Source: Ceratodon purpureus
Taxonomy: Eukaryota > Streptophyta > Bryopsida > Pseudoditrichales > Ditrichaceae
Direction of reading: 5' to 3'
Length of the DNA: 64,000 bases
Assembly (NCBI GenBank): GCA_014871385.1
Contig: CM026429.1
Location: forward strand, 4,056,083-4,120,082
The position numbers were made by a program, and so were the translations under genes. Of the stretch, positions 20,822-52,687 are shown piece by piece (position 1 is the first letter of the stretch; each line of letters starts with the position of its first letter). The notes beneath the pieces are model-generated. The model had not been told where the DNA came from. It did no database searches and was given only the letters and a program-made list of their open reading frames with translations.

Positions 20822-21807
20822 TTTCTAAGTGGCCTATCTAATTCGAAGAAATCATTGGCATCGGACAAGATTCTGTTGTGTTGCATTGTAGAAATAGTAA
20901 TTTGGTGCCATGTGTGAATTGATGAAATTTACAAGGACATGTTCAAGGTGACTGAAAAACATTTTCTGTATTCTTAGTCCTACAAATAGTGTACAATGAC
21001 ATAGATATCATGTACTTTTTTAATTGAAATAAATTTCTGAATTACTCATATATTCTAGAAATTTTGGATTGGGGGAGAGATTTTCGACCTCTCAAACACG
21101 CAGCCACCTGCTGATGACGTGTCCGTGAAAAGTGTGCTGCTGACGTGGACGAAGGCCTTTATAGCTCAGTGGTAGAGCGTCAGTCTTGTAAACTGAAGGT
21201 CCGGTGTTCAATCCACCGTGGAGGCATCTCTGATTGGCTGCTGCTCCGGTCAGCGAGATAAAATTTCAGACTTCTCATGACGTCGATATTGGGACCATAG
21301 TCATTCACCTCTTCTTTCTTTCCATTTTGTCTGTTTTCATTTTTCATCTGTTGATGTCACACATGTATTCCACTTGGTAGATTTCAGTGAGACAATTTTT
21401 GAAGACTTGAAGTTGAAAATTTATGAATGTTGGTAGGATTTGGTTTGAATTTGGGTAGGCTACAACCTCTCACAATCTCCCATTTTCCACCCACACTAGG
21501 TATCATACAAAGGGCATAACGGGCCAAGACTAGTATGCAAAGGGTGGGCATTTATAACATATTAGGCCCAATGTTTTCTCATCCATAAACTTCGATGAGA
21601 ATTTTCATTCAACACGCACTTATCATATGTTGGTCAAATTTTAGCTAATTTGGTGTTTTAAAAAAAATCATTTGTTGCAATTCTCATTGCTTGTAGAGCT
21701 TGCAAATCATGGGTAGCTACTCCATCTACAAATATCCACAAAAAGAGACTTGCCTCTTGAATTTCTACAAAATACATTGATCCCTCGCAAGAATATTCAT
21801 GAATATT
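20822..21807 (+). repeat. Left arm of 986-bp inverted duplication carrying tRNA-Thr
   Basis: This arm is the reverse complement of 24079-25064. Both arms are 986 bp, so no net gap is needed, and I find only a few substitutions (for example at the outer end taagtgg versus taactgg, and ttttgg versus ttcgg near 21063). The arm holds a whole tRNA-Thr gene. No target-site duplication is obvious at the outer ends. Confidence 0.93.
21155..21226 (+). tRNA. trnT-UGU: tRNA-Thr (anticodon TGT)
   Basis: A complete cloverleaf folds: acceptor GCCTTTA pairs with TGGAGGC (including G-U pairs), the D-arm is GCTCAGTGGTAGAGC, the anticodon stem is TCAGT/ACTGA around loop CTTGTAA (anticodon at 21187-21189), and the T-arm is CCGGTGTTCAATCCACCG-like. 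A and B boxes are both present. No intron and no encoded CCA, as expected for a nuclear gene. No strong T-run terminator follows directly. Confidence 0.9.
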
Positions 21808-24078
21808 TTCTTTACTTTATTGAGGAAAATAAAAGTCGGTTATTCTTCTACTTCAAAGAACCTTAGATTATATATTATCCGACGTCCTTTGAGAACATAC
21901 TTTCCATTCTTCACCTTGAAGTTGAGAAATCCATACTCTTCTTTTAAGTAAGTTTTGAAGGTGATAAGTGCATTTGATTAACTTCTAAATCCGTATCAAT
22001 ATTATCAGCATTATGCAATATTATATATTCATTTGCACTTTCAAATAATGAATCATTTGGGGAAATGACCATTGAAGCAAAATAATTTTTTGGCACCTCA
22101 CAAGATGTCATTGGGTTTTTTGTTATGTGATGATGGAATGCTTGTACTTATGGTCATTAATTGAATCTCGTAGAGCACCTATGTAAAGTTTTCTCCTTTA
22201 GTGTCATTTTAGACCAATCAAATATATTGTAGAAAGTTTCTTCAAGAAAATATACTTAATTTTATATATTTTTATATATTATACTCGTTTCAATTTTAAA
22301 AAACTTAATATAGCCATATAGCAAGACAAAAATAATACAATTATGAGGCTTTGTCTTTAATAGCTTTATATGAACTTAAGAATTGAAGATCAATTTGTTC
22401 TTAATGTAGTTGAAGTATTTTTGAGTTATAAATAGATGAACAAGGTTTTTTATTCAGTTTTACTTCAATTAGAGTGTCTTGCACTAATCAACGACAATAC
22501 TTATATATAGTATCAATTTAAAATTCATAATTTACATCTTAAGTGATGGAATTTAATGGAAATGAAAATTAATAAAAGCCTTACGATAAGATAACCATAT
22601 ATGTGAGCTTCATAATTCATAGTGTAGGAATAAAAAAATAACCGATACCTCCAAATCCAAAGCTTATTTGGCTAACAAGGTGATAATTTTTCAAAGATAA
22701 TATTCCTTTAGTTAGTTATAGATATTGTTGCTAGCTCAAAAAAAAATATGTAAAGTTCCAAGCTAAATCCACCTATTACGTCAAGTATCTTCAATGATTT
22801 CATCATTACACCCTAACATGTTTACTCCAATCATTGATATTTCAAGTATACTAGAGTTCAATATTATCACAATAAAATATTCATGGTCAATGATAGTAGC
22901 TCCATTGTCTCCTATCCAATGTAATGTAAGGGTCCCTCAACCAATAAGCCTAGAACAAAAACCAAAATGTCTTTTATTGAACACCAATATTTTTGATTTA
23001 TTCGTATCAATTGACTTATTGTAGTCATAAATATTATGAGCATCATATCCAAATACATCATTTAAATGTTTCACTCTCATTGGTGCAGTTCAATAAATAA
23101 GGCTTTAATATGCTCCAATATGATTCATTTTAAAGCCAGATACATCATATTTAGTATGATTAAACTCATCATCACATTATAAATAACAACTTGTAAGATC
23201 ATCAATAATTATTTTATTGAAAGTACATGATAAACATACAAAAATTGCCAACTCGTCATATTAATCTACATTTTATCAAAAAGAATTTAGTTAGAAAAAA
23301 GTTGAGTTTCTTTTATTTATCATTCAAATGAACTTTGATGAAGAAAGTCCGGAACATAAACAGTTTCATGCCAATCTTGACCAGGATAATTATCTCCATT
23401 ATGCTTCTTCAAATAAATGTCTGCTTCAAGTTGCGTTTAGACATATAATAAAATCTTTATAAGCAGTAGTAATTCATGGTATGAAATAAAAATAGTACAC
23501 CGCAGTCAATTTAACAAAATTAATTCAATACTAAGTTTATATTCAAAAATGAAATGATATAAAATCAGACAATAACATCACCATTTGGAAACAAAAACTT
23601 ACTAGAGTCAACAATGATGACACATTGTTATTATGTTGCTTCTAATTCATCAACAAATAAATGTAGTTACTTCAATGGAAATCCCATTCTAACATGTGTA
23701 GTCTCTCAATTTTTCATTCCTCAATTATGGTTTTAGACTAATAGACAAAAGCATGTATATAATCTGGGTTTTCAATAGGATATGAAAATTACCCTTCTAG
23801 ATGCTATGAAATTAGAAAATGTAAAGAGATTCAATACACCAATAATATCCAAATGATACTATTTCATCATTTCCGAAATATCTTTATAAAGTATAATCTA
23901 GCATCAACACTAAAATACACTCTCTCCAAGCAATGTCAAAAATCATTCCAAAAGTGTCATTAAATCATACTATCTTCTAAATTCCAAATAACAATGATCT
24001 TTAATATATTCACAATTTTTTTATTTTTCAAAAATTCAATGCAAACTTGAATCTAAAGCACGATAAAATACTAGAGAG
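21808..24078. other. AT-rich spacer of the tRNA-Thr inverted duplication
   Basis: The 2271-bp loop between the two arms is AT-rich and broken by stop codons in all frames. It may hold decayed transposon sequence, but I cannot identify a protein domain. Confidence 0.6.
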
Positions 24079-25064
24079 AATATTCATGAATATTCTTGCG
24101 AGGGATCAATGTATTTTGTAGAAATTCAAGAGGCAAGTCTCTTTTTGTGGATATTTGTAGATGGAGTAGCTACCCATGATTTGCAAGCTCTACAAGCAAT
24201 GAGAATTGCAACAAATGATTTTTTTTAAAACACCAAATTAGCTAAAATTTGACCAACATATGATAAGTGCGTGTTGAATGAAAATTCTCATCGAAGTTTA
24301 TGGATGAGAAAACATTGGGCCTAATATGTTATAAATGCCCACCCTTTGCATACTAGTCTTGGCCCGTTATGCCCTTTGTATGATACCTAGTGTGGGTGGA
24401 AAATGGGAGATTGTGAGAGGTTGTAGCCTACCCAAATTCAAACCAAATCCTACCAACATTCATAAATTTTCAACTTCAAGTCTTCAAAAATTGTCTCACT
24501 GAAATCTACCAAGTGGAATACATGTGTGACATCAACAGATGAAAAATGAAAACAGACAAAATGGAAAGAAAGAAGAGGTGAATGACTATGGTCCCAATAT
24601 CGACGTCATGAGAAGTCTGAAATTTTATCTCGCTGACCGGAGCAGCAGCCAATCAGAGATGCCTCCACGGTGGATTGAACACCGGACCTTCAGTTTACAA
24701 GACTGACGCTCTACCACTGAGCTATAAAGGCCTTCGTCCACGTCAGCAGCACACTTTTCACGGACACGTCATCAGCAGGTGGCTGCGTGTTTGAGAGGTC
24801 GAAAATCTCTCCCCCAATCCGAAATTTCTAGAATATATGAGTAATTCAGAAATTTATTTCAATTAAAAAAGTACATGATATCTATGTCATTGTACACTAT
24901 TTGTAGGACTAAGAATACAGAAAATGTTTTTCAGTCACCTTGAACATGTCCTTGTAAATTTCATCAATTCACACATGGCACCAAATTACTATTTCTACAA
25001 TGCAACACAACAGAATCTTGTCCGATGCCAATGATTTCTTCGAATTAGATAGGCCAGTTAGAAA
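24079..25064 (-). repeat. Right arm of 986-bp inverted duplication carrying tRNA-Thr
   Basis: Reverse complement of 20822-21807 with the same length and only a few substitutions. The inner end is at the aatattcatgaatattc palindrome that also ends the left arm. Confidence 0.93.
24660..24731 (-). tRNA. trnT-UGU: tRNA-Thr (anticodon TGT), second copy
   Basis: It is identical in sequence to the copy at 21155-21226, on the opposite strand, with the anticodon complement at 24697-24699. All cloverleaf stems are intact, so both copies may be functional. Confidence 0.9.
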
Positions 25065-40021: not shown

Positions 40022-40085
40022 CGCCGACCGTGGGACTCGAACCCACGACCACGTGGTTAAAAGCCACGCGCTCTACCAGCTGAGC
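40022..40085 (-). pseudogene. tRNA-Lys (TTT), 3' part, split from its 5' end
   Basis: D-arm through acceptor 3' strand of a tRNA-Lys: D-arm GCTCAGCTGGTAGAGC, anticodon loop CTTTTAA, T-loop TTCGAGT, then GGTCGGC and discriminator G. The matching acceptor 5' strand (GCCGACC) is about 1.1 kb away at 41164-41170 because LINE sequence has been inserted between. The sequence immediately upstream is LINE tail and cannot pair. Confidence 0.88.
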
Positions 40086-40750
40086 TTAAAGTCCCTGTCC
40101 GGGTATTGATTAAAAAGTAACCAGCAAACACAAAGGGCGAGGCCCTGATCGCCCCCGAGGGGGTAGAGACGCGGGCAAGACCCGGGGGACCAGGCCCTCA
40201 CGGGCCGGCCAAAGACAACCTAAGCTGCCTAAAGGGGGGGGGTCGCCGAAGCCCGGCTGACCAAGCAGAAACCAGGGGTTTCTACTGCAAATCCGGAGGC
40301 TCCACGCCCCCCCTCAAATCAAAAGCTGATCTGCTGACACCCGGTTCAGAGTCGGTCTGAACCAACTGACACCGTGTCCAAAATCGACTCTCAACAGGTC
40401 CAAGTTCACAAGCTGAACTGAACCAAACATCTGATCTGAACCAGAAATCTACCAGCCTAGACGCTGACCTGAACCAACTATCTAAAAGCTGATCTAAAAC
40501 CCACTAACAACAAACCTACCAGCTGGTCTGAACCAACTATCTACAAATCCTAGTCAAACCCTAGGCTATCCGAGTCGAAACTAGTGTCATCTCCTTCGCT
40601 GAGAAAGTCTTCCTGCTCATCCTCTGAGAGCGATGCCGGCAAAGCTGCCAGTTGTTGCTCCCAGAATCGCACCAGTTCCTCCTGAGAAATGGGCAGACCT
40701 CTTCCCAGCTCCACCGGGGGTGGAGCCCTGACTTCACTCGGGCCAGCTTG
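40086..40750 (-). mobile_element. 5'-truncated LINE (element B) inserted in the tRNA-Lys D-arm
   Basis: It lies between two copies of the 17-bp target GCTCAGCTGGTAGAGCG (minus strand, 40751-40767 and 40069-40085). The first part (40750 to about 40550) encodes the end of a LINE ORF2, ending EQEDFLSEGDDTSFDSDSLGFD then stop, similar in style and in its DFLS and RFW motifs to the end of the full-length LINE nearby. The rest is 3' untranslated region with a G-run near 40227-40235 and a small CCC/GGG stem near the end. No poly(A) tail is present. Confidence 0.75.
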
Positions 40751-40767
40751 CGCTCTACCAGCTGAGC
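40751..40767 (-). repeat. Middle copy of the 17-bp tRNA-Lys D-arm target
   Basis: The sequence equals the target duplication at 40069-40085, 44173-44189 and 52624-52640. It separates elements A and B and is evidence that they were inserted one after the other at the same site. Confidence 0.88.
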
Positions 40768-41151
40768 TGAAAGGCCTGAATCCAGGATGAATTAAGATGA
40801 ACGGAAAATTACACACGAACGAGAACACATTCATCCAATCGAACGAATGCACCCTCATCCAACGTAACGACCGCAAAGGCCCAACCCAACAGAGGGCATC
40901 ACAGGGCAGAGCCGGTAACATCCTACGATATTACAATGGGGGGGGGGTCCATAAGACTAAAGTCCTGAATTAAGCAAACAGAACTATCGAACTACTCCTA
41001 AGCATGCAGACAAGAAATACTCTAATGAGAGCAATCTGCAGTTAGAGCAAGGCTGACTAATTTTCAATCTGGTTCGCGGGGGAAGCAGTTCGGAGACGCC
41101 GGAGACAAAGAAGGCTCCAGGGAAGGACTTGTGCTGGTGTCTGTGTGAGCG
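40768..41151 (-). mobile_element. Short LINE-derived insertion (element A) in the tRNA-Lys D-arm
   Basis: About 384 bp lie between the mutated tRNA-Lys 5' half (41152-41170) and the middle target copy. The tail has a CCTG/CAGG stem (40775-40786) a few bases before the target and shares a gtgtgta motif with the tail of the full LINE, so I read it as a truncated 3' end of a related element. No coding region remains. The LINE origin is inferred from position and tail layout. Confidence 0.55.
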
Positions 41152-41170
41152 CCAGCTAAGTTAGGTCGGC
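41152..41170 (-). pseudogene. tRNA-Lys 5' half with decayed D-stem
   Basis: GCCGACC and TA (minus strand, 41162-41170) are intact and would pair with the acceptor strand at 40023-40029. The following D-arm reads ACTTAGCTGG instead of GCTCAGCTGG, that is one G-to-A and one C-to-T transition, and is then cut off by element A. Confidence 0.8.
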
Positions 41171-41662
41171 TTTTTTATCCATCCGAATTCTTACATTCAT
41201 CCAATTCCGGGGGACCAATCGGCTCTCTGCTTCTTTGAAATCCGCACTGCGGTTAAAAACATGAAAAAGAACAACAACCAAGGCCACGAGCCCAAAGACT
41301 CGAAGCCAAGGTGCCATGCTCGCAGCCTAGATCCGAAAGCAGGCAGGCCACTACAACCCTACCACTACAACTCTACATCTACCGCAATAGCACAGCAAGG
41401 CACGAAAGAGCCAAAGAGGTCCGAGCATAAGGTAACCCTACTACCACATCAAACTAATCAAGCCCTACAACAAATAAAACAGCAATAGGTAAATTAACTT
41501 GAAAACTATCTACAACTAGCATCAACCAACTTGGTGTACCAACAAACTAGCCTGACCAGCATCAACTAACTTGGTGCACCAACTAACAAGCCTGAAGATA
41601 AATCATTATCGGTGAGGTGAGAAAACTGTGCAAACATGTCCACAGCATCTTGAAGCCCTCCT

Positions 41663-43171: not shown

Positions 43172-43256
43172 AGTTCATTTGAGGAGGGAATGTCGAGTTG
43201 AGATTCTCAACAGAGTGTTGAGAATCTCAACTCAACATTCCATCCTCAATTGAACT
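43172..43256. repeat. Hairpin with 40-bp arms and 5-base loop
   Basis: Arms 43172-43211 and 43217-43256 are reverse complements with about three mismatches; the 17 bp next to the loop (agagt) pair perfectly. It may be a small foldback element or a miRNA-like precursor. Confidence 0.85.
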
Positions 43257-43763: not shown

Positions 43764-44163
43764 TTGGATATTTCAATTATTATATTGTACATTTTTTTTA
43801 AACATTTATATTATATATAATTGAAAGTTCACTTATATTATATAATTTTTAATGGTATTTTAAATTATATATGAACATGTTTTTCTTTCCCCCAAGTAGG
43901 TGGTACAAACTACACTAATAAGTATTCTGAAGCAGATTAATGCAGATTGCAGTAGATGTAGAGTTGTAGTGGTAGGGTTGTAGTGGCCTGCCTGCTTTCG
44001 GATCTAGGCTCCGAGCATGGCACCTTGGCTTCGAGTCTTTGGGCTCGTGGCCTTGGTTGTTGTTCTTTTTCATGTTTTTAACCGCAGTGCGGATTTCAAA
44101 GAAGCAGAGAGCCGATTGGTCCCCCGGAATTGGATGAATGTAAGAGTTTGGATGGATAAAAAA

Positions 44164-44189
44164 GCCGACCTAGCTCAGCTGGTAGAGCG
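44164..44189 (+). pseudogene. tRNA-Lys (TTT) 5' half, split by the LINE
   Basis: Acceptor GCCGACC, linker TA, D-arm GCTCAGCTGGTAGAGC and base 26 (G). The 3' part is at 52641-52686, 8.4 kb away. GCCGACC pairs perfectly with GGTCGGC at 52680-52686, which shows that these are two parts of one gene. Confidence 0.92.
44173..44189 (+). repeat. 5' target-site duplication of the LINE
   Basis: GCTCAGCTGGTAGAGCG, identical to 52624-52640. It covers the whole tRNA D-arm and most of the Pol III A-box. Confidence 0.95.
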
Positions 44190-44377
44190 GAGCTCCGCGG
44201 CGATGGCGGAAAGAAGCGGGGGGCGGCGAAATCTTGTTTCGACGTTTTTCTGAGTCTTTTTTGCTGTAAATCGTGCGCTGGTTTGACACACGTTGGGGTT
44301 TAGTATTTCTCGGGTTAGTTCGAGTGATTCTAGTTCTTGGGTCGTTTTTCTCGTCGATTTCTGAGTTGTAGTTTGGG

Positions 44378-47071
44378 ATGTCTGAGTGTGGGAGGGAGGA
44401 TCGTCTTGTTTCTAGTCCGGGAGGGGTTGTTAGTTTACCCGGAGGATTAGAGGAGGAGGGTTTCCATGCTTTGACTGAAGGACCACAGGTCACGATGAGA
44501 GACTGCGAGAATGTCCCCAACGAGGTACTTGCGTCTGCCATTGATAGAGATCATAGATCCCTAGAGAAGCAGACTGCTCAGCCGGAGTGTGTTGATGGAG
44601 TGGTCACGTTTCAATTCTCACCTGAGGAATTGTCTATCCTGGAGAAGCATCGCAAGGATGCGGAAGAAAGAACTGTTATAGGGCACTTTCCTGTGAAGAG
44701 TCCGGGCTTTACTGTTATTCAAGAATGGGCTAGAGGGGTTCTACACTCGTCTTTTCTTAATGTGGCTTTGATTGGGAGTGGGTTTTTCGAAGCCACTTTT
44801 TCTACCAAAGAGGGTGTTCTTGATACTCTCAAGAATTCTTACTTCTATGAAAGTAAGGAAGTTTTGTTTTCGACTTGGAGTCCTGATTTCTCAACAGAGA
44901 ATGAGAAGTCGTTTGCCGAGGTTAAGTACCCTATTTGGGCGCACTTTCTTGGTCTTCCGACTTATCTTCGGAATACAGCGTGTTTAACGTTGTTGGGGAA
45001 AAGATTGGGAGAAATCTTGACAATAGATCTTTCTGATAGCTTTGTTGGAAAGACTTCAGGACCAAAGATTCGCATTCTTGTTTCAGATGTGGATTCTTTA
45101 CCTGAGACGATGTTGTTGCCTGGTCGCAAAGAGGGCACTTCTTTGATTCATAAGATGACTTACACTGGTCGGCCTGATCAATGTGTAAGATGTAAGGCCT
45201 TCGGTCATACTCTTAGAAATTGTGCGGTGAAGAATGGTGAAGAAGTTGTTCCTCCTTCTAGAGGAGTTTCAAGAACAAGAGACAGAAGTCGTAGTAAGAG
45301 CAGGACTAGATTTCAAGAAGTACAGAACAAGAGAGGTGGCCGTGGTTTTGGGAATCGGGGTCGTGGAGTGGGTGATGGTGTTTCTGGACGGGGTGGTGTT
45401 CAAGATCGGGGCAGAACAGAGAACTTTTGTGGAAGAGGAGGAGGCTATCGCGGAAGAGGTGGAGGTTTTAAAGGAGCGAAGGTTACTTGGGGTCTTGATG
45501 GAAAGACTGGTGAGAAGCAGGATTTACATGAGAATGGTGGAGAAAAGATTCTTGATGAATCTGTATGTGCTATTCGAATTGCTACTATGGAGAAGAGTCA
45601 AGGTGAAGAGTCTCGGAATTTGGAGGAGGCTTGCGAAGGGCTACCTCGGAAAGTTAAATCTATTGTGGTGGATTTACGTGAACGGGAGGAACTTTTGGAA
45701 GTTGTTCGGGATTCTCAGGAAGAATTGATGGTGGTTGATAGAGTTCCAATTTCTAAGGGGGTTGAAGAGGAGGTTACTTGGCTAGAGGATATTCCCTTGG
45801 TTGAGGATCAAGAGGCTCACTCTGATCCAGCCACTGAGATCTTGAAACCTGACTCCGGGAAGGGTATTTCAGACATACATTTGGAGGGTTGTAACGACTC
45901 TTTGAATGGTTCTCAGGTGAAGACTTACGTTGATGTGCTTAAGGGTACTCCAACATTGGGAGTAGTTGATACTAATATCAGGGCTAGTTCTGACAGCGTA
46001 GGAGCTTCTCCTACTCGACTTGTGAGTGGGGAGCTTGACAAGTATGTTACTCCAGCGCTTAGGAGTAGAAATATCTTGACAAGCAAGGATAGGTCAGGTG
46101 ATACTTCGGTTTCTAAATCCTGGTTACAATCCGACCCTGCGACGAAACTTCAGTTGTCTCAACTGAAGAATACGTCTCTTGAGAAGGGTAAAAAGGTGAT
46201 AGATGAAGCTGATTTTTCTCTGGATACGGCAGGGGCTATGAACGATAGTCCTGTTTTGGAGAAGGGAGAAGAAGCCATTTCCAAGGCAAGATTTGACTTC
46301 CCTTGGAAAAATGGTCTTAATAGCAGGCCAGTTCCTGCTATTCCTAAGAAGGCTGTTGACCCGAATTCAACTCTGAAGAGGGGTTACCTTACGACAAATA
46401 TCCCAATGTGTTTCTGGGATGCAGCAAACATCTTAGTTCCTTTTAAGGCTAAGAATAACCGCTGCAGAGTCTATCCGATTCTTTTGGAATCAATGACAGG
46501 TGATGCGAGAAGATCTAATCAGAAATTTCTTATTCAGAAAGCTGAACCGGGGAAGTCTTTTAGTAAAGCAATTACTTTCCGTCAGTTGAGTGTCATTGAA
46601 GGAGTTAATGACTGGTCTGTGAAAGAGGCTCAGAACCATCTTGTTAATGAGGGCTCTCTTGCTCTGCGCAAGGTTATAATTAACACCAAGAATAAGGTCA
46701 ATCCCTTAAAATATTGGAAAGATGCCATGTGGTTTTACCGATGGATTAAGGTGGACAATGATAATTGCCACTGTGTTATTCTGGCTTTTATTCCAGTACT
46801 GTTAGATTCGATTCCGGTTCATAAGCCAGAATTATACTTTGCAAAACCTCTGGACATGAGTATGCAACAGTTGCTTACCGCAAGTGGGAAGCTGGGGAAG
46901 ATTGTTAAGATAATTGGAGCATCGGAGGATCAGCTCCACTCCATTATTGGAGACGAGCTTTTTGAGGGAGATCCGTCGCCGGCTCGTCCAGCGACAAAGA
47001 AGTTTAAACAGGGTGATGGAACAAAGAAGGTGCAAACGAACTCTGGTACTACTGTGCCCATTCGTCAATGA
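44378..47071 (+). CDS. LINE ORF1: DUF4283-like domain plus CCHC zinc knuckle
   Basis: An intact 897-residue frame from ATG 44378. Residues about 70-260 resemble the DUF4283 domain found in plant LINE ORF1 proteins (VIQEWARGVLHSSF, YPIWAHFLGLPTYLRN). A zinc knuckle CVRCKAFGHTLRNC follows near 269-282, then a stretch rich in Arg and Gly (about 305-375) that could bind RNA. The second half is Ser/Glu-rich, followed by an ordered C-terminal segment. ORF1 proteins of this type package the LINE RNA with ORF2. The stop TGA (47069-47071) overlaps the ORF2 ATG (47068-47070), the arrangement expected for termination-reinitiation. This is the only ORF of the element without visible damage. Confidence 0.88.
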   Translation: MSECGREDRLVSSPGGVVSLPGGLEEEGFHALTEGPQVTMRDCENVPNEVLASAIDRDHRSLEKQTAQPECVDGVVTFQFSPEELSILEKHRKDAEERTVIGHFPVKSPGFTVIQEWARGVLHSSFLNVALIGSGFFEATFSTKEGVLDTLKNSYFYESKEVLFSTWSPDFSTENEKSFAEVKYPIWAHFLGLPTYLRNTACLTLLGKRLGEILTIDLSDSFVGKTSGPKIRILVSDVDSLPETMLLPGRKEGTSLIHKMTYTGRPDQCVRCKAFGHTLRNCAVKNGEEVVPPSRGVSRTRDRSRSKSRTRFQEVQNKRGGRGFGNRGRGVGDGVSGRGGVQDRGRTENFCGRGGGYRGRGGGFKGAKVTWGLDGKTGEKQDLHENGGEKILDESVCAIRIATMEKSQGEESRNLEEACEGLPRKVKSIVVDLREREELLEVVRDSQEELMVVDRVPISKGVEEEVTWLEDIPLVEDQEAHSDPATEILKPDSGKGISDIHLEGCNDSLNGSQVKTYVDVLKGTPTLGVVDTNIRASSDSVGASPTRLVSGELDKYVTPALRSRNILTSKDRSGDTSVSKSWLQSDPATKLQLSQLKNTSLEKGKKVIDEADFSLDTAGAMNDSPVLEKGEEAISKARFDFPWKNGLNSRPVPAIPKKAVDPNSTLKRGYLTTNIPMCFWDAANILVPFKAKNNRCRVYPILLESMTGDARRSNQKFLIQKAEPGKSFSKAITFRQLSVIEGVNDWSVKEAQNHLVNEGSLALRKVIINTKNKVNPLKYWKDAMWFYRWIKVDNDNCHCVILAFIPVLLDSIPVHKPELYFAKPLDMSMQQLLTASGKLGKIVKIIGASEDQLHSIIGDELFEGDPSPARPATKKFKQGDGTKKVQTNSGTTVPIRQ

Positions 47072-50000
47072 ATGTACAGAATATAACTTTAGCTTTGTAC
47101 AATATTAGGGCCCTTGGCCACGATATTCACGGAGTTAACAAAAGGAATGAGATCAGAGATTTTTTTGATAAGGCTGTTCCTCAAGCCAACATCATTCTTT
47201 TGCAAGAGCATCACTTGCCCTTGGAGGATTGTTTGGAGAATGCTCGACAATTGGATTATAAAGGAGGGGCGTCATTTGGGAACAATGCGGTTTACAATGC
47301 GCCTGGAGATAGGTTTAAGGGGGGTACGGCTATTATTGTGGGAGCTAAGCTGGCCCCCTTTATCCTCGACTCTGGAGTTCTCATTGAATCCAGGGTTCAG
47401 TTTTTTATCTTTGACTTAGGAGAAGACTTAAAGATCGGAGTTCTGAACATCTATGCTCAGAATCATACGGTGGCAAGGCATCGTTTATGGAATAAATTAC
47501 GTTCCTGTAAGTTTCCAGAGGCAAATTGGATTTTGGCTGGGGATTTTAATATGACTGAAAATTCTGAAGACAGGAGTCCAGATTATACTGGTAAGGCGAT
47601 GGGGGAACGGGAGCGTGGTGCTTGGCTTAAGTTCACAGTGGAACTGGGAGTTAGTGATGTTTTCTACTTGGACGAGTTTCGGATGATTGGAGTTAAGCGG
47701 CACACTTGGAAACGGGAGAAGCCTACACCCATTTGGTCTCGGTTAGACCGCTTTTACTTGGATGGTGTACTACAACAGTATGGAGGGGTCATGGTATTTG
47801 GCAGAATATCGATCATATCTCAGATCACTCTGCGGTTTTTCTACAAATTTACTTGGAAAAACGCAGATATAAAGGGGCGATTCCTTTTAATAATTCTCTA
47901 CTTAAGGATGCTACATCTAAAGTGGAACTGCTGGTTATCTGGAATGATATTGTGAAGGGAAAGAGTTCCTCGTACTCTGACCGTTTCGTTCAGGCTCTTG
48001 AACAGATCAAGGAAGAGAGTGATTCGATTACTAAGATGAAGCGGAAGGAGGGACGTAAGGTGTATGAATCACAGTTTCAGGATATTCATGAAGCTGAAGA
48101 GTTACTGCAGTCAGACTGGAGTAATCTTGAGGCTTGGGAGAAGTTGAATAGAGCTCAGGAGGCATTGGAGTGTATTCGGATGGATAAGCTGGACAGGAAG
48201 AGATTTGCGGCAGGAGCTAATTGGTCAAGAATGGGAGACCGGTGTACTAAGGAGTTTTTTAGTTTTCATAAGGAGCTTAAACCGAAGGGTGGTATAAAGG
48301 AGTTGCTGGATGGTGGAAGAGTTCTGAAAACGCAAGAAGAGATTTCCAAGTTTGTTGTGGATTTTTACAAAGATCTATATACGAATGATATGGAGGTGGA
48401 GCTTAACGTTGAGATCAGGAGGGACTGTTTGCGGAGTGTGCCTGTGGTGGTTACTCCTGATCAAAATGAGTATCTGACTAAAGAGTTTTCGAATTCGGAA
48501 GTTGCTGAGGCTTGCAAGTCATTACCGAAGTTTAAGGTCTGTGGGGTTGATGGGGTACCAACGGAGTGGTACCATGAGAACTGGGACGATATCTGCGATG
48601 ATCTCACGGGTCTGGTTAATGAATCGTTTAATTTGGGAAGGATTCATGAGAAATTAAATCTCGGTTTAATGTCTTTGATTCCTAAGCCGGGCCCTTAAAC
48701 GAATATCAAGAACTATCGTCCTATTTCAGTACTTTCGAGTACTTATAAGGTGATCTCTAAGTCTTTGGCGAACAGAGCTCAGCCTTTTCTTCCAAGATGG
48801 ATAAGACCTACGCAGTCAGGTTTTGTGAAGGATCGGTACATCTTAGATAATGTTTTCACGGCGTTTGAAGCGATGGAGTATGCGAAGGAGTCGAAACAGG
48901 ATCTTGTGATTCTTTTGCTGGACATGGAGAAAGCTTATGATCGAGTTAACTGGAGTTTTCTCCAAGACTCGATGAGAGCTTTAGGTTTCAGCGAGAAGTG
49001 GATAAAGTGGTCATCCACCTTATATGTGGGGGCTAAGACTCATGTTTTAGTAAATGGTCAGAAGAGTGAAGAGTTTGTCATGCAGAGAGGAGTCCGTCAG
49101 GGTTGTCCAATGGCTCCGTATTTGTATCTTTTTGTTTCTGATGTCTTAGGATATATGATCAATGATCCTAGGTTTGGGTTAGAAGGTTTGTCTCTTCCTG
49201 ATAAGAAGACTCTCCTGGATATGTTCTTTGCAGATGATACTTCTCTTTTCCTTAGAGGTACTAGGGATAATTTGGTCCGAGCCTACTCTGTCTTAGATAT
49301 GTTTTGTAAAGCTTCTGGGGCTAAAATTAATTGGGACAAGAGTGTCGCCATCTGGGCATTGATTAGAGAGCGGGATTTTACTTGGGGTGAAGATTTAGGT
49401 CTAAAATGGTTAGTTGAGGGTCAGACTACAAAACATTTGGGTTTTCCTTTGGGTTTTAATATGCCTCAGAGGGATAAGGATGCTAAAATCCTTCAGCAAA
49501 TTCGGAACAACATTAGGAGAAAAATGAGCTCAAAATAAGGCCGTGTAAGCCTGCCCTTTCTAGGTGAACTCCCTACTTTGGGCACCTCTGCCGCTGGCAG
49601 CGGATGCCAGAGTTGCTGCCCGCACAGAACTGCGTGGCGCACTCACAACAAAGGTCCTCGGAATATTAGGTGAGACATGAATGCCTCAGCTCGGGCTTTG
49701 GTCCCAAGTGGGCAGGTTGTGTCAGCCCGACACTGTAGATGTGCCCTCCACACGCCTCCCTCGGAGATCATTGGTTCGAGCCCCCGTGGCGGTTGCTGGC
49801 ACCGCGGTGGCACCTCACATGCCATGTCAAAAAGTACGCGGGCAGCGCCCGTTTTTTTCTCTCACGTGCCGCTTACACGGCCTTTTTGTGACCTGATTTT
49901 TCTCCTAATGACTCAGTGTTTGGTCACCAAAGCCTCTTTCTTTGGCTGCTAGAATACTAGTTTCTAACCAGGTTGTTTTAGCATCTATTTCGTACATATC

Positions 50001-52234
50001 TTCTTGTGCCGACATTTCTCTTGGGGCTCTGAAGAAAGTGCGTACTCTTGTTAGGAACTTTATTTGGGGGGGTGATCCTAACAGGAATTCACGTGCTAGA
50101 GTTGCCTGGGATTCCGCTATTATGCCCACTGCTCACGGTGGCATTAAAATCTTTGATCCTTTTGCGCAAGCTCAGGCTCTTTTGGCTAAAATAATCATAC
50201 GAGGATTAGTTCCAGGTCCTGAACCGTGGAAATCGCTTTTGCTTCATAGGATTAAATCTTTGCGTTTATCCTCTGGTGGCAAGTGGGCAGAAGATGAGAG
50301 CTGGTTATTCTCTGCGAAGAGAATCTGTGATCAGGGTTCGCCTTTGTGGCAGGGGACGTGGTCTGCATGGCTTCATGTCAGGCCTGGATTGTCGAAACAG
50401 GAGCCGAAGGGTTTCGATGAAACACTGCGACAGTGTTTGTATTTTAATCCACATATAACGAATGATGAAGGTAAAATGTGGGGGGAAGTTTATCAGAGCA
50501 TGTTCCGGAATTGGTCTACCAAGGGTATTTTTCGTGTCAAGGATATCTGGGATCCTTCTCGTTCGGACATGTTGACAGCAATGGAACTTCGCAGGATGAC
50601 ACGATCTATCAACCTTGATAGGATTCGTGATGAGCTTTTTGAGAGCTTGCCTTTGAATGGAATTCCTCCTGAGGAGGGGTTCTGGTTGGTGGATGATGAG
50701 GTCGTGAGTCGAGGTGAATTCTTTCATATACAGCAGATTGTGGAAGACGGTTTTATGGTACACAAATATATTCACGCTGACGATTCGGAGAGATTGACGA
50801 GGGTTTCTGATTCTGCAGTATTTCTAAGTACTGATAGAAAGGTTTCGTCAGCCAGAGTATGTAGAAGAACGTGGGCAGGAACGGTGGTGGATATTAATCC
50901 TAAGAATTGTGCGGATTGTGGTTATTCTTTCTGGACGATTGGAGGAGGCAAAGTTCTTAACTTGCCCATCGATCCGGTGGAATGGATTTGGAAGAGGGTT
51001 GGAGTTATCAAGGAAGGTCACTTTTTTGATTACTCTACTAAACGAGGTTACAGATACATTATAGATTCTCAAAAGAAGCAGCCTCCTCTTGATAAGTTTT
51101 TAGAAGAGGCAGGATATTCGAAGTTGGAGAGGAAGAGGTACTATGTTAAGTTGTGGCACCCATGGGTTCAGAGGAAGATTGCTTCTATGATTTGGCTTAC
51201 GGGTTCAGGTGGTTTGCCACTTGCGGATTGGAGATTTCGCAAGAATATGTGTGATAGTGGAGTCTGCAATTTGTGTTCCACTGGTCTTTCAGAAACGCCA
51301 GAGCATGCTTTTATGAGGTGTCCTGCTGTTACTGAAGTATGGGATAGGTTTCGTTTCTTGAGGTCTTTGGTTAATATGCCACAGAGACCTCACACATGGG
51401 TGGAGGTATTGACTGGTTTAGATCCACCGATTGGGCCTAATCCACACAGACAGATTGCTGTACAAGCTGCTGATGATTCTACTCCGGGAAGAATCGACAA
51501 TAAGGAGACACCTTGGGACATACTCAGGGTGTGTTTAGTTTGGAGTTTGTGGTGTCAGAAGTGTGGTCATGACTTAAGAGGTGTCAATTTTCATATTGGT
51601 ATTGCCCTCTTTCGTGCTTGGCAACTGACAATTCAGGCTGGCATGGGTGCTTGGAGGGATTTACAGAAACATGTTTCTGATCCTAAGACTGAGAAACAGA
51701 AAGAAAGGGAAGCTAATTTCATTTCTATATGGACTTACAAGGGGGTCTTTTGCAAAAATGATGGGGGTTTGAGGTGGCAGATGGCACCTAATCATTATTT
51801 TTTGCCAAAAGACCTGGCGAACTTGTACAGATCGTTTCAAGGTGGTGTGGTTCATCTTGATTCGAGTTCTGTGTCCCCTGTGGATTCTTTGCCTTCGCAG
51901 ATGGAGGACACATTGGTTGCGGCGCTAGCTGGAGACCAGGAGGAGCGTGATAGAGCGGAAGAACTGGCTGATGTGATCTTGCATCAGATTGTTCAAGACA
52001 TTACGAGAGACTTGGAGCTAGAGGAGGAACGTGAAGACATGTTGCGGGAGCAGGGGAATGCTGCGCAGAATGAGGAAGAGCTCTGTTCAGGATTTCTTGA
52101 GTTCAGATTCAGAGGAGGAGTCGTCTTCTTCTTTTAGTATGGATTTACCTAGTGACTTACAGAGTCCCTCTGAACTTCGATTACAAGCGAGGTTTTGGGC
52201 TTCGGTGGAGGGACGTTCCCTTAGTGACTCTTGA
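47068..52234 (+). pseudogene. LINE ORF2: endonuclease and reverse transcriptase, broken
   Basis: Frame segments are 47068 to about 47790, about 47790 to 49510 and 49911 to about 52085, with the last part probably in a third frame to 52234. The first encodes an APE-type endonuclease (NIRALG, LLQEHHL, AGDFNM, and after a one-base loss SDHSAVF). The second has the reverse transcriptase: PISVLS, DMEKAYDRVNW, QRGVRQGCPMAPYL and the catalytic FADDT. A stop (TAA, 48696-48698) follows PKPGP. At 49511-49910 a 400-bp insertion interrupts the frame; the code resumes with SVWSPKPLSLAARILVSNQ. The third part ends with a zf-RVT-like motif (CNLCSTGLSETPEHAFMRCP). Close to 52085 the frame shifts so that the end reads DFLSSDSEEE, as in element B. 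Confidence 0.88.
49511..49910. mobile_element. 400-bp TIR element inside the LINE reverse transcriptase
   Basis: Ends 49511-49550 and 49871-49910 are inverted repeats with 36 of 40 positions matching and no gaps (CATTAGGAGAAAAAT at the outer edge, AAGGCCGTGTAAGC at the inner edge). Removal of exactly 400 bp gives in-frame RNKLSVWSPK, the expected LINE sequence, so no target-site bases were duplicated. The interior is GC-rich, has no coding frame of note and contains a B-box-like GGTTCGAGCCC near 49774-49784. I know of no named family with these ends. Confidence 0.8.
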
Positions 52235-52623
52235 TACCGAGAATTGAATCTTATCTTTTCTCATTTTCCTTTTATTTTTAGAAGGATTTGCAGGACTCTC
52301 TTGCTTAGAATCAGTCCTCATTGGATTTGGTTTTAGTTTTCTCATTTTAATTCAGGATTATAGTGAGGAAGCTTGGTTACTGTTTTAGTCAAGGGATTGC
52401 TTTATTTCTTGACTTAGTCTGCTAAATTTTTTAGTAGGCTCCTCCTTCATTCGGATCTTTCTGTTTGAAGTGAGTTAGTGGATTTTCTTCTTAGATTATC
52501 TGTTTTTGGGAGTTCCCTCTCCTTGCCAGCTTGTGGCAGCCTTTGAGCCTGGCTCTTTGGTTTCATTCTTGGATCATTCCCGGGTGTGTATGTTACTTTT
52601 ATTTAACCCGAAGCGGGTATTCG

Positions 52624-52687
52624 GCTCAGCTGGTAGAGCGCGTGGCTTTTAACCACGTGGTCGTGGGTTCGAGTCCCACGGTCGGCG
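52624..52687 (+). pseudogene. tRNA-Lys (TTT), 3' part, split by the LINE
   Basis: Starts with the second copy of the 17-bp duplication (52624-52640) and runs through anticodon stem CGTGG/CCACG, loop CTTTTAA (anticodon 52648-52650), T-arm GTGGG/CCCAC and acceptor GGTCGGC to discriminator G. The 5' neighbour is the LINE tail, which cannot pair with the acceptor strand, so a mature tRNA is not expected. A and B boxes are both present, so transcription by Pol III remains possible. Confidence 0.92.

Follow-up and report, generated by a model that had tools for sequence, protein, structure and literature searches.

Insertions of L1-related LINEs at a putative A-box site in tRNA genes of the moss Ceratodon purpureus

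Within a 64,000-nucleotide stretch of the genome of the moss Ceratodon purpureus (GenBank assembly GCA_014871385.1, contig CM026429.1, positions 4,056,083 to 4,120,082, forward strand; henceforth the window), a long interspersed nuclear element (LINE), here called LINE A, interrupts a tRNA-Lys(UUU) gene. Did a plant L1-like element happen to strike this gene, or does its lineage seek such genes out? The window and the genome (362,488,568 bases in 151 contigs) were searched for answers. Very probably, a clade of LINEs close to plant L1, whose endonuclease is of the apurinic type, integrates through target-primed reverse transcription at a fixed position within the A box and D arm of tRNA genes. 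A fixed 3' junction, target duplications, 5'-truncated copies, a recurring 3' hairpin with a short tail and stacked insertions are demonstrated at the level of sequence.

LINE A within a tRNA-Lys gene

When the flanks of LINE A are joined at a single copy of the duplication, ARAGORN recognizes a 73-nt tRNA-Lys(ttt). Together with the Pfam domains of the insert, this confirms the reading of an earlier note on this DNA, according to which a LINE at 44190-52623 interrupts the gene (locus A) and the flanks rejoin to a 73-nt tRNA. Downstream of the element, 52624-52687 consists of GCTCAGCTGGTAGAGCG, the anticodon arm, the T arm and finally GGTCGGCG, and the Rfam tRNA match at 52623-52679 is without the first eight model positions. 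The 17-mer GCTCAGCTGGTAGAGCG has four occurrences in the window, compared with an average of 0.05 in shuffled sequences with up to three mismatches, and six exact places in the 362 Mb of the genome, the window's four included. The duplication had been described as a perfect 17 bp. The 17-mer does stand on both sides; since sister copies show the target's own A (nt 9) at the base matching 52623, the duplication is better taken as 18 bp with one base changed.

DUF4283, a plant domain, in open reading frame (ORF) 1 and the endonuclease, reverse transcriptase (RT) and zf-RVT domains of LINE A all exceed the Pfam cut-offs, and Pfam revealed no further domains besides these. A CX2CX4HX4C zinc knuckle was read by eye in ORF1. 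The ATG of ORF2 overlaps the stop codon of ORF1 as ATGA (47068-47071); coupled translation would be possible. The copy in the window is dead: its reading frame shifts near 47787 and again between about 52000 and 52110, a stop codon stands at 48696-48698, and about 400 bp of foreign sequence interrupt ORF2. A 94.8% identical copy of this foreign insert was found in L042 on contig C6.

Insertions in tRNA genes across the genome

A paralogous tRNA-Lys gene, locus B, lies on the minus strand at about 41170-40022 and carries two inserts, B1 and B2, at the same bond as LINE A (Table 1). Because loci A and B share flanks with 97.5% identity over 237 bp on one side and 98.4% over 563 bp on the other, they form an inverted duplication. 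LINEs do not excise, and locus A is without B1 and B2 while locus B is without LINE A; the three insertions are therefore independent of each other and younger than the duplication. The 3' ends of both B1 and B2 abut the same D arm, and the Rfam tRNA match at 40030-40086 (minus strand) lacks, as at locus A, the first eight model positions. B2 is counted in the LINE clade because a longer relative, L044 on contig C12 (95% identical), carries clade coding, extending into the C-terminal sequence of ORF2.

To gather tRNA-Lys loci, a 28-base piece of the tRNA 3' part was used with at most three mismatches, giving 20 places, and the 17-mer search contributed one extra, decayed gene (L001). Among these 21 loci, eight are split, 12 are uninterrupted, a status read from the sequence and not from ARAGORN, and one (L026) has a D arm too decayed to score; split genes with a more decayed tRNA 3' part would escape this search. 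The tRNA-Lys gene is thus split by insertion, and further copies of the same gene stay whole. The split loci (A, B and L044 to L049) hold nine insertions altogether. Seven join at nt 8/9, and the other two, L047 and L048, join 8-9 nt further along. Protein of LINE A's clade is encoded by L044, L045, L047, L048 and L049; for B1 and L046, the link to the clade comes from the 3' end alone. With eight insertions besides LINE A in tRNA-Lys genes, having either clade coding or a like 3' end, the insertion at locus A is no coincidence, and the interpretation given in the earlier note is supported. Flanks were joined at 14 sites, locus B being outside this set, and ARAGORN recognized a tRNA at nine (seven Lys, two Arg). 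At about 1.295-1.445 Mb, contig C8 carries a tandem array of tRNA-Lys(UUU) genes (L012-L021), several of them 971 bp apart, in which three of ten are split (L012, L013 and L015).

The ends of the elements share a common anatomy. Of 16 element ends, 13 (6/8 in the LINE A family, 7/8 in other elements) show a 3' hairpin whose stem, 3-5 pairs long, closes 4-7 nt ahead of the junction, and the same rule is passed by 2.9% of the 40-mers in the window. None of the 16 ends is poly(A). In 13 of 16 rows the duplication spans 16-20 bp, its two copies sometimes differing by one or two bases, and 5' truncation is seen in several inserts. Such is the anatomy left by target-primed reverse transcription from a structured 3' end.

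As a target-blind search, the 3' untranslated region (UTR) of LINE A was used as query, yielding nine places in the genome, the window copy included. One member (L034/L043), whose 5' flank has GAGCTCAGTACC, has lost its 3' end and was excluded from the junction count. Three of the eight readable copies sit in tRNA genes, one in tRNA-Lys and two in tRNA-Arg(CCU). The tRNA-Arg pair is located within a duplicated segment, 97.7% identical over 6.5 kb, and hence probably represents one insertion event. At the remaining five sites, ARAGORN found no tRNA in the joined flanks (the L040 join being set one motif repeat off). The target copies there start AGCTCTCAGAATGTAT (AGCACTC in the 3' copy), GCTCAGTGAGCATGGC, AGCTCACAAGTGGTCTTG, AGCTCACGAATTA (C replaced by A in the 3' copy) and AGCTCATCTGTCC (T replaced by C in the 3' copy). 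In each of the eight readable copies, AGCTC or GCTCA, or a form differing from it by one base, is present at the 3' junction or the 5' copy of the target, whereas AGCTC occupies 0.0013 and AGCTCA 0.0004 of the strand positions in the window.

The earlier note proposed to examine the junctions of other copies for an enrichment in tRNA D-arm sequence; this enrichment was found, both as the motif (8/8) and as tRNA genes (3/8). The same note would have taken the insertion for a coincidence if most other copies lay outside tRNA genes at unrelated sites; most do lie outside (5/8), but the sites are related in that they keep the A-box core motif. Since five of eight readable copies sit outside tRNA genes, the specificity is better described as one for the A-box core rather than for tRNA genes alone: the LINE A family appears to prefer this core, with tRNA genes as a favoured, not exclusive, target. 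With 3/8 copies in tRNA genes, the family differs from strictly site-specific elements, nearly all copies of which lie in the target gene. Independent copies at one exact junction in a multicopy gene, the mark of site-specific insertion, are nevertheless present: seven at tRNA-Lys nt 8/9, two shifted, and the tRNA-Arg event at the same site.

Five of the nine 3' UTR matches, at 72-87% identity, are on contig C6 (110.5 Mb), which may be the sex chromosome. L039 and L042 combine the 5' end of LINE A (about 480 bp) and part of its 3' end around a middle unmatched by LINE A in blastn, and are possibly non-autonomous derivatives of it.

Table 1. Positions of the split tRNA-Lys genes and their inserts; coordinates are those of the window unless a contig is named.
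Feature	Position	Strand	Basis or remark
tRNA-Lys(UUU) 5' part of locus A: acceptor 5' strand, nt 8-9, D arm	44164..44189	+	GCCGACC-TA-GCTCAGCTGGTAGAGCG; flank joining
Target site duplication, 5' copy, locus A	44172..44189	+	reads AGCTCAGCTGGTAGAGCG
LINE A, full-length but broken	44190..52623	+	8434 bp; 52623 probably altered target base A9
LINE A ORF1, 897 aa, DUF4283	44378..47071	+	Pfam
ORF2 apurinic-type endonuclease	47068..47787	+	Pfam; frame lost near 47787
ORF2 linker and RT	47790..49514	+	stop at 48696-48698
Insert of about 400 bp within ORF2, 40-nt inverted arms 90% complementary	49511..49910	+	no counterpart in sister copies L040, L043
ORF2 C-terminal part with zf-RVT	49912..52137	+	relatives' frame at extreme C-terminus stops near 52234
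3'-terminal hairpin ACCCG-AAG-CGGGT and 4-nt tail ATTC	52606..52622	+	LINE A end
Target site duplication, 3' copy, locus A	52623..52640	+	G in place of A at first base
tRNA-Lys(UUU) 3' part of locus A: anticodon arm, T arm, acceptor 3' strand	52641..52687	+	Rfam; joined flanks
Locus B left flank, tRNA-Lys 5' part, first target copy decayed	41152..41388	-	97.5% identical to 43946-44182; sequence comparison
Insert B1, 384 bp; hairpin and tail CCTG-GATT-CAGG-CCTTTC	40768..41151	-	3' end
Second D-arm copy, locus B	40751..40767	-	17-mer match
Insert B2, 665 bp, 5'-truncated LINE	40086..40750	-	longer relative L044
Third D-arm copy and 3' part of locus B tRNA-Lys	40022..40085	-	17-mer at 40069-40085; Rfam
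L044, 1.4 kb insert, B2 family	contig C12		tRNA-Lys nt 8/9
L045, 5.1 kb insert	contig C3		tRNA-Lys nt 8/9
L046, insert of about 180 bp	contig C8		tRNA-Lys nt 8/9
L047, 3.4 kb insert	contig C8		tRNA-Lys nt 17/18
L048, 7.9 kb insert	contig C8		tRNA-Lys nt 16/17
L049, 5.0 kb insert	contig C5		tRNA-Lys nt 8/9

Mechanism and competing explanations

In the mechanism that we propose, the endonuclease would recognize TAGCTCA(G) and place the first nick between nt 8 and 9, on the strand opposite the tRNA sense strand. The RT would hold the short 3'-terminal RNA hairpin and start copying at the nick, and the second strand would be cut 16-20 nt downstream. Each insertion leaves the target site in place, and insertions are stacked there at locus B. 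As AGCTCA is common, the hexamer alone is probably insufficient to account for the tRNA share; a longer match to the D arm or open RNA polymerase III (Pol III) chromatin may contribute. On a broader view, which we hold to be likely, a moss LINE clade sister to L1 has evolved the ability to recognize the Pol III A box directly and has interrupted roughly two fifths of the examined tRNA-Lys(UUU) loci. One of its subclades would have shifted the cut by 8-9 nt in the same D arm, and the clade would have converged with Dada DNA transposons on TAGCTC and given up poly(A) priming in favour of a 3' hairpin with a short tail.

Several observations weigh against fixed-site insertion in tRNA genes. In the sole target-blind search, five of eight readable LINE A family copies lie outside tRNA genes; the tRNA-Lys set was found through a tRNA query, and the tRNA share of those families is not inferable from it. 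The membership of the locus B inserts also leaves room for doubt. The C-terminal frame of B2, taken alone, gives p values of 0.35, 0.02 and 0.47, a search for coding matches in B1 returned none that is significant, and the link of B1 through its 3' end has p values of 0.0035 and 0.02. Some duplications are short: that of the tRNA-Arg pair measures 9 bp and adjoins a short filler, and that of B1 measures about 11 bp, two of its bases being altered. The hairpin rule was modelled on the first three ends, and 8/16 ends belong to the LINE A family. Moreover, the fold energy of these first three 3' ends is not significant against shuffles: 13, 37 and 64 of 200 shuffles fold equally well for 30-mers, and 35, 66 and 159 for 60-mers. 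For this reason the case for the hairpin stands on its recurring position. Finally, the nick is deduced from sequence, and the window copy is dead.

The first of these points leads to an alternative that we consider unlikely but worth weighing, in which the endonuclease reads (T)AGCTCA anywhere and tRNA genes are struck merely as carriers of the motif. The five LINE A copies at AGCTC/GCTCA sites without a tRNA are what it predicts. However, if the window frequency of 0.0004 holds genome-wide, non-tRNA sites far outnumber those in tRNA genes, and yet two of seven LINE A events and eight other insertions are in tRNA genes, an argument which assumes that tRNA genes form a tiny share of the sites. 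In addition, two insertions join at (T)GGTAGAGCG, a different D-arm sequence.

It is improbable that Pol III factors on tRNA genes attract the element, as for TRE5 and Ty3, with sequence being of little weight. The hits do centre on the A box, which is bound by TFIIIC. Against this, the junction is exact to the base and inside the gene, and the motif is kept by copies outside tRNA genes. The dictyostelid TRE elements, for their part, insert outside the gene (PMC5006619, PMC3706591).

That an ordinary L1-like LINE struck a tRNA gene by chance finds support only in the loose insertion of L1 in general, and is refuted by nine tRNA-Lys insertions at two places, by the tRNA-Arg event and by the recurrence of the motif wherever a LINE A site could be read; we give it practically no credence. 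Equally negligible is the idea that the D-arm sequence is a tRNA-derived end of the element and not its target: several element tails do have a D arm next to them, but tRNA halves on opposite sides rejoin to a tRNA and LINE A copies elsewhere adjoin other sequence with its own duplication, which refutes it.

Kinship and known systems

A quick RT tree with 70 rows unites LINE A in a clade with four unnamed database proteins (SH-aLRT, the Shimodaira-Hasegawa-like approximate likelihood ratio test, 98), and this five-row clade is sister to four plant rows from Coffea, Rubroshorea and Sesamum (SH-aLRT 90). In a tree with the moss copies, 12 RTs make up one clade (100/99), within which LINE A, L040 and L043 group at 100/100 and L047 and L048, the shifted-site insertions, pair at 93/93. 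The order of the outgroups in this second tree is weak (82/81), and neither tree includes a Tx1-labelled row. Compared with solved structures, the relative P0008 matches LINE-1 ORF2p at 1.7e-55 and P0011 likewise matched LINE-1 ORF2p, while P0002 gave no match. Among viral contigs and prokaryote genomes, no relative of ORF2 was confirmed.

By its RT, nearest to plant L1, by DUF4283 in ORF1 and by the apurinic endonuclease, RT and zf-RVT of ORF2, LINE A is plant L1-like, the proteins from the three plant genera being the nearest named RTs to the moss LINEs. Plant L1 elements have a poly(A) 3' end and loose, AT-rich targets. In contrast, the moss LINEs have a hairpin tail and a fixed target, the sites starting AGCTC/GCTCA or (T)GGTAGAGCG.

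The R2 and NeSL elements are characterized by a restriction-like endonuclease and no apurinic-type domain, and NeSL-1_TV, LIN15_SM and LIN25_SM likewise have a restriction-like endonuclease. The moss LINEs differ from the NeSL group in their apurinic-type endonuclease, plant host and ORF1 with DUF4283. What they have in common with this group and its kin is that they are non-long terminal repeat (non-LTR) retrotransposons specific for tRNA genes: PMC4640811 places NeSL-1_TV in tRNA-Pro and the planarian LIN15_SM and LIN25_SM in tRNA-Arg and tRNA-Glu. The earlier note had regarded a plant L1-like LINE that cuts inside the A box as undescribed. LINEs specific for tRNA genes are in fact already reported (PMC4640811), whereas a report of the A-box site in a plant L1 sister with an apurinic-type endonuclease was not found among the papers listed. 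More generally, no LINE inside plant tRNA genes was found among the titles and openings of abstracts listed from the open-licence literature, a scope that leaves out Repbase.

Several lineages of Dada DNA transposons hit tRNA nt 8-13, at TAGCTC in some of them, and one lineage, Dada-tK, hits tRNA-Lys (PMC3706591, PMC8869645). The A-box hexamer is the same as that of the moss LINEs, but Dada elements have a DDE transposase and 6-7-bp duplications, while the moss elements encode an RT, move by reverse transcription and leave mostly 16-20-bp duplications. TRE5, TRE3 and related dictyostelid elements, which are also LINEs seeking tRNA genes, insert at a distance of about 50 bp or about 4 bp on the upstream side of the gene, or of about 100 bp on its downstream side (PMC5006619), in agreement with the earlier statement that they insert near yet outside it; TRE5-A likewise lies near, not within, its targets (PMC3706591). 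The junctions of the moss LINEs lie within the gene. Dewa of zebrafish is a site-specific non-LTR element tied to tRNA genes as well, but sits in the tRNA-Leu spacer rather than in a gene (PMC3706591).

If the proposed mechanism holds, sequence-specific targeting of a small RNA gene has entered the plant L1 branch, known for loose insertion, and with it poly(A) has been lost and a 3' hairpin is present. Multicopy tRNA genes would offer such an element many mostly harmless targets. Two unrelated kinds of mobile DNA would have arrived at the same hexamer, and, with sister subclades using two different sites, a change in target specificity could be tested directly. A D-arm-cutting endonuclease, combined with a short RNA tail that primes at the cut, might be of use for inserting genes at safe positions in plants.

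Elsewhere in the window, two tRNA-Thr(UGU) genes, both unsplit, are found in a 993-bp inverted duplication (20822-21814 and 24072-25064, 99.6% identical). A hairpin at 43172-43256 has 41-nt arms that are 93% complementary; its Rfam matches are to microRNAs alone and far under the gathering scores. Along 88% of its length, a BT1-family exon at 26121-27206 matches a protein of Ceratodon purpureus at 99% identity.

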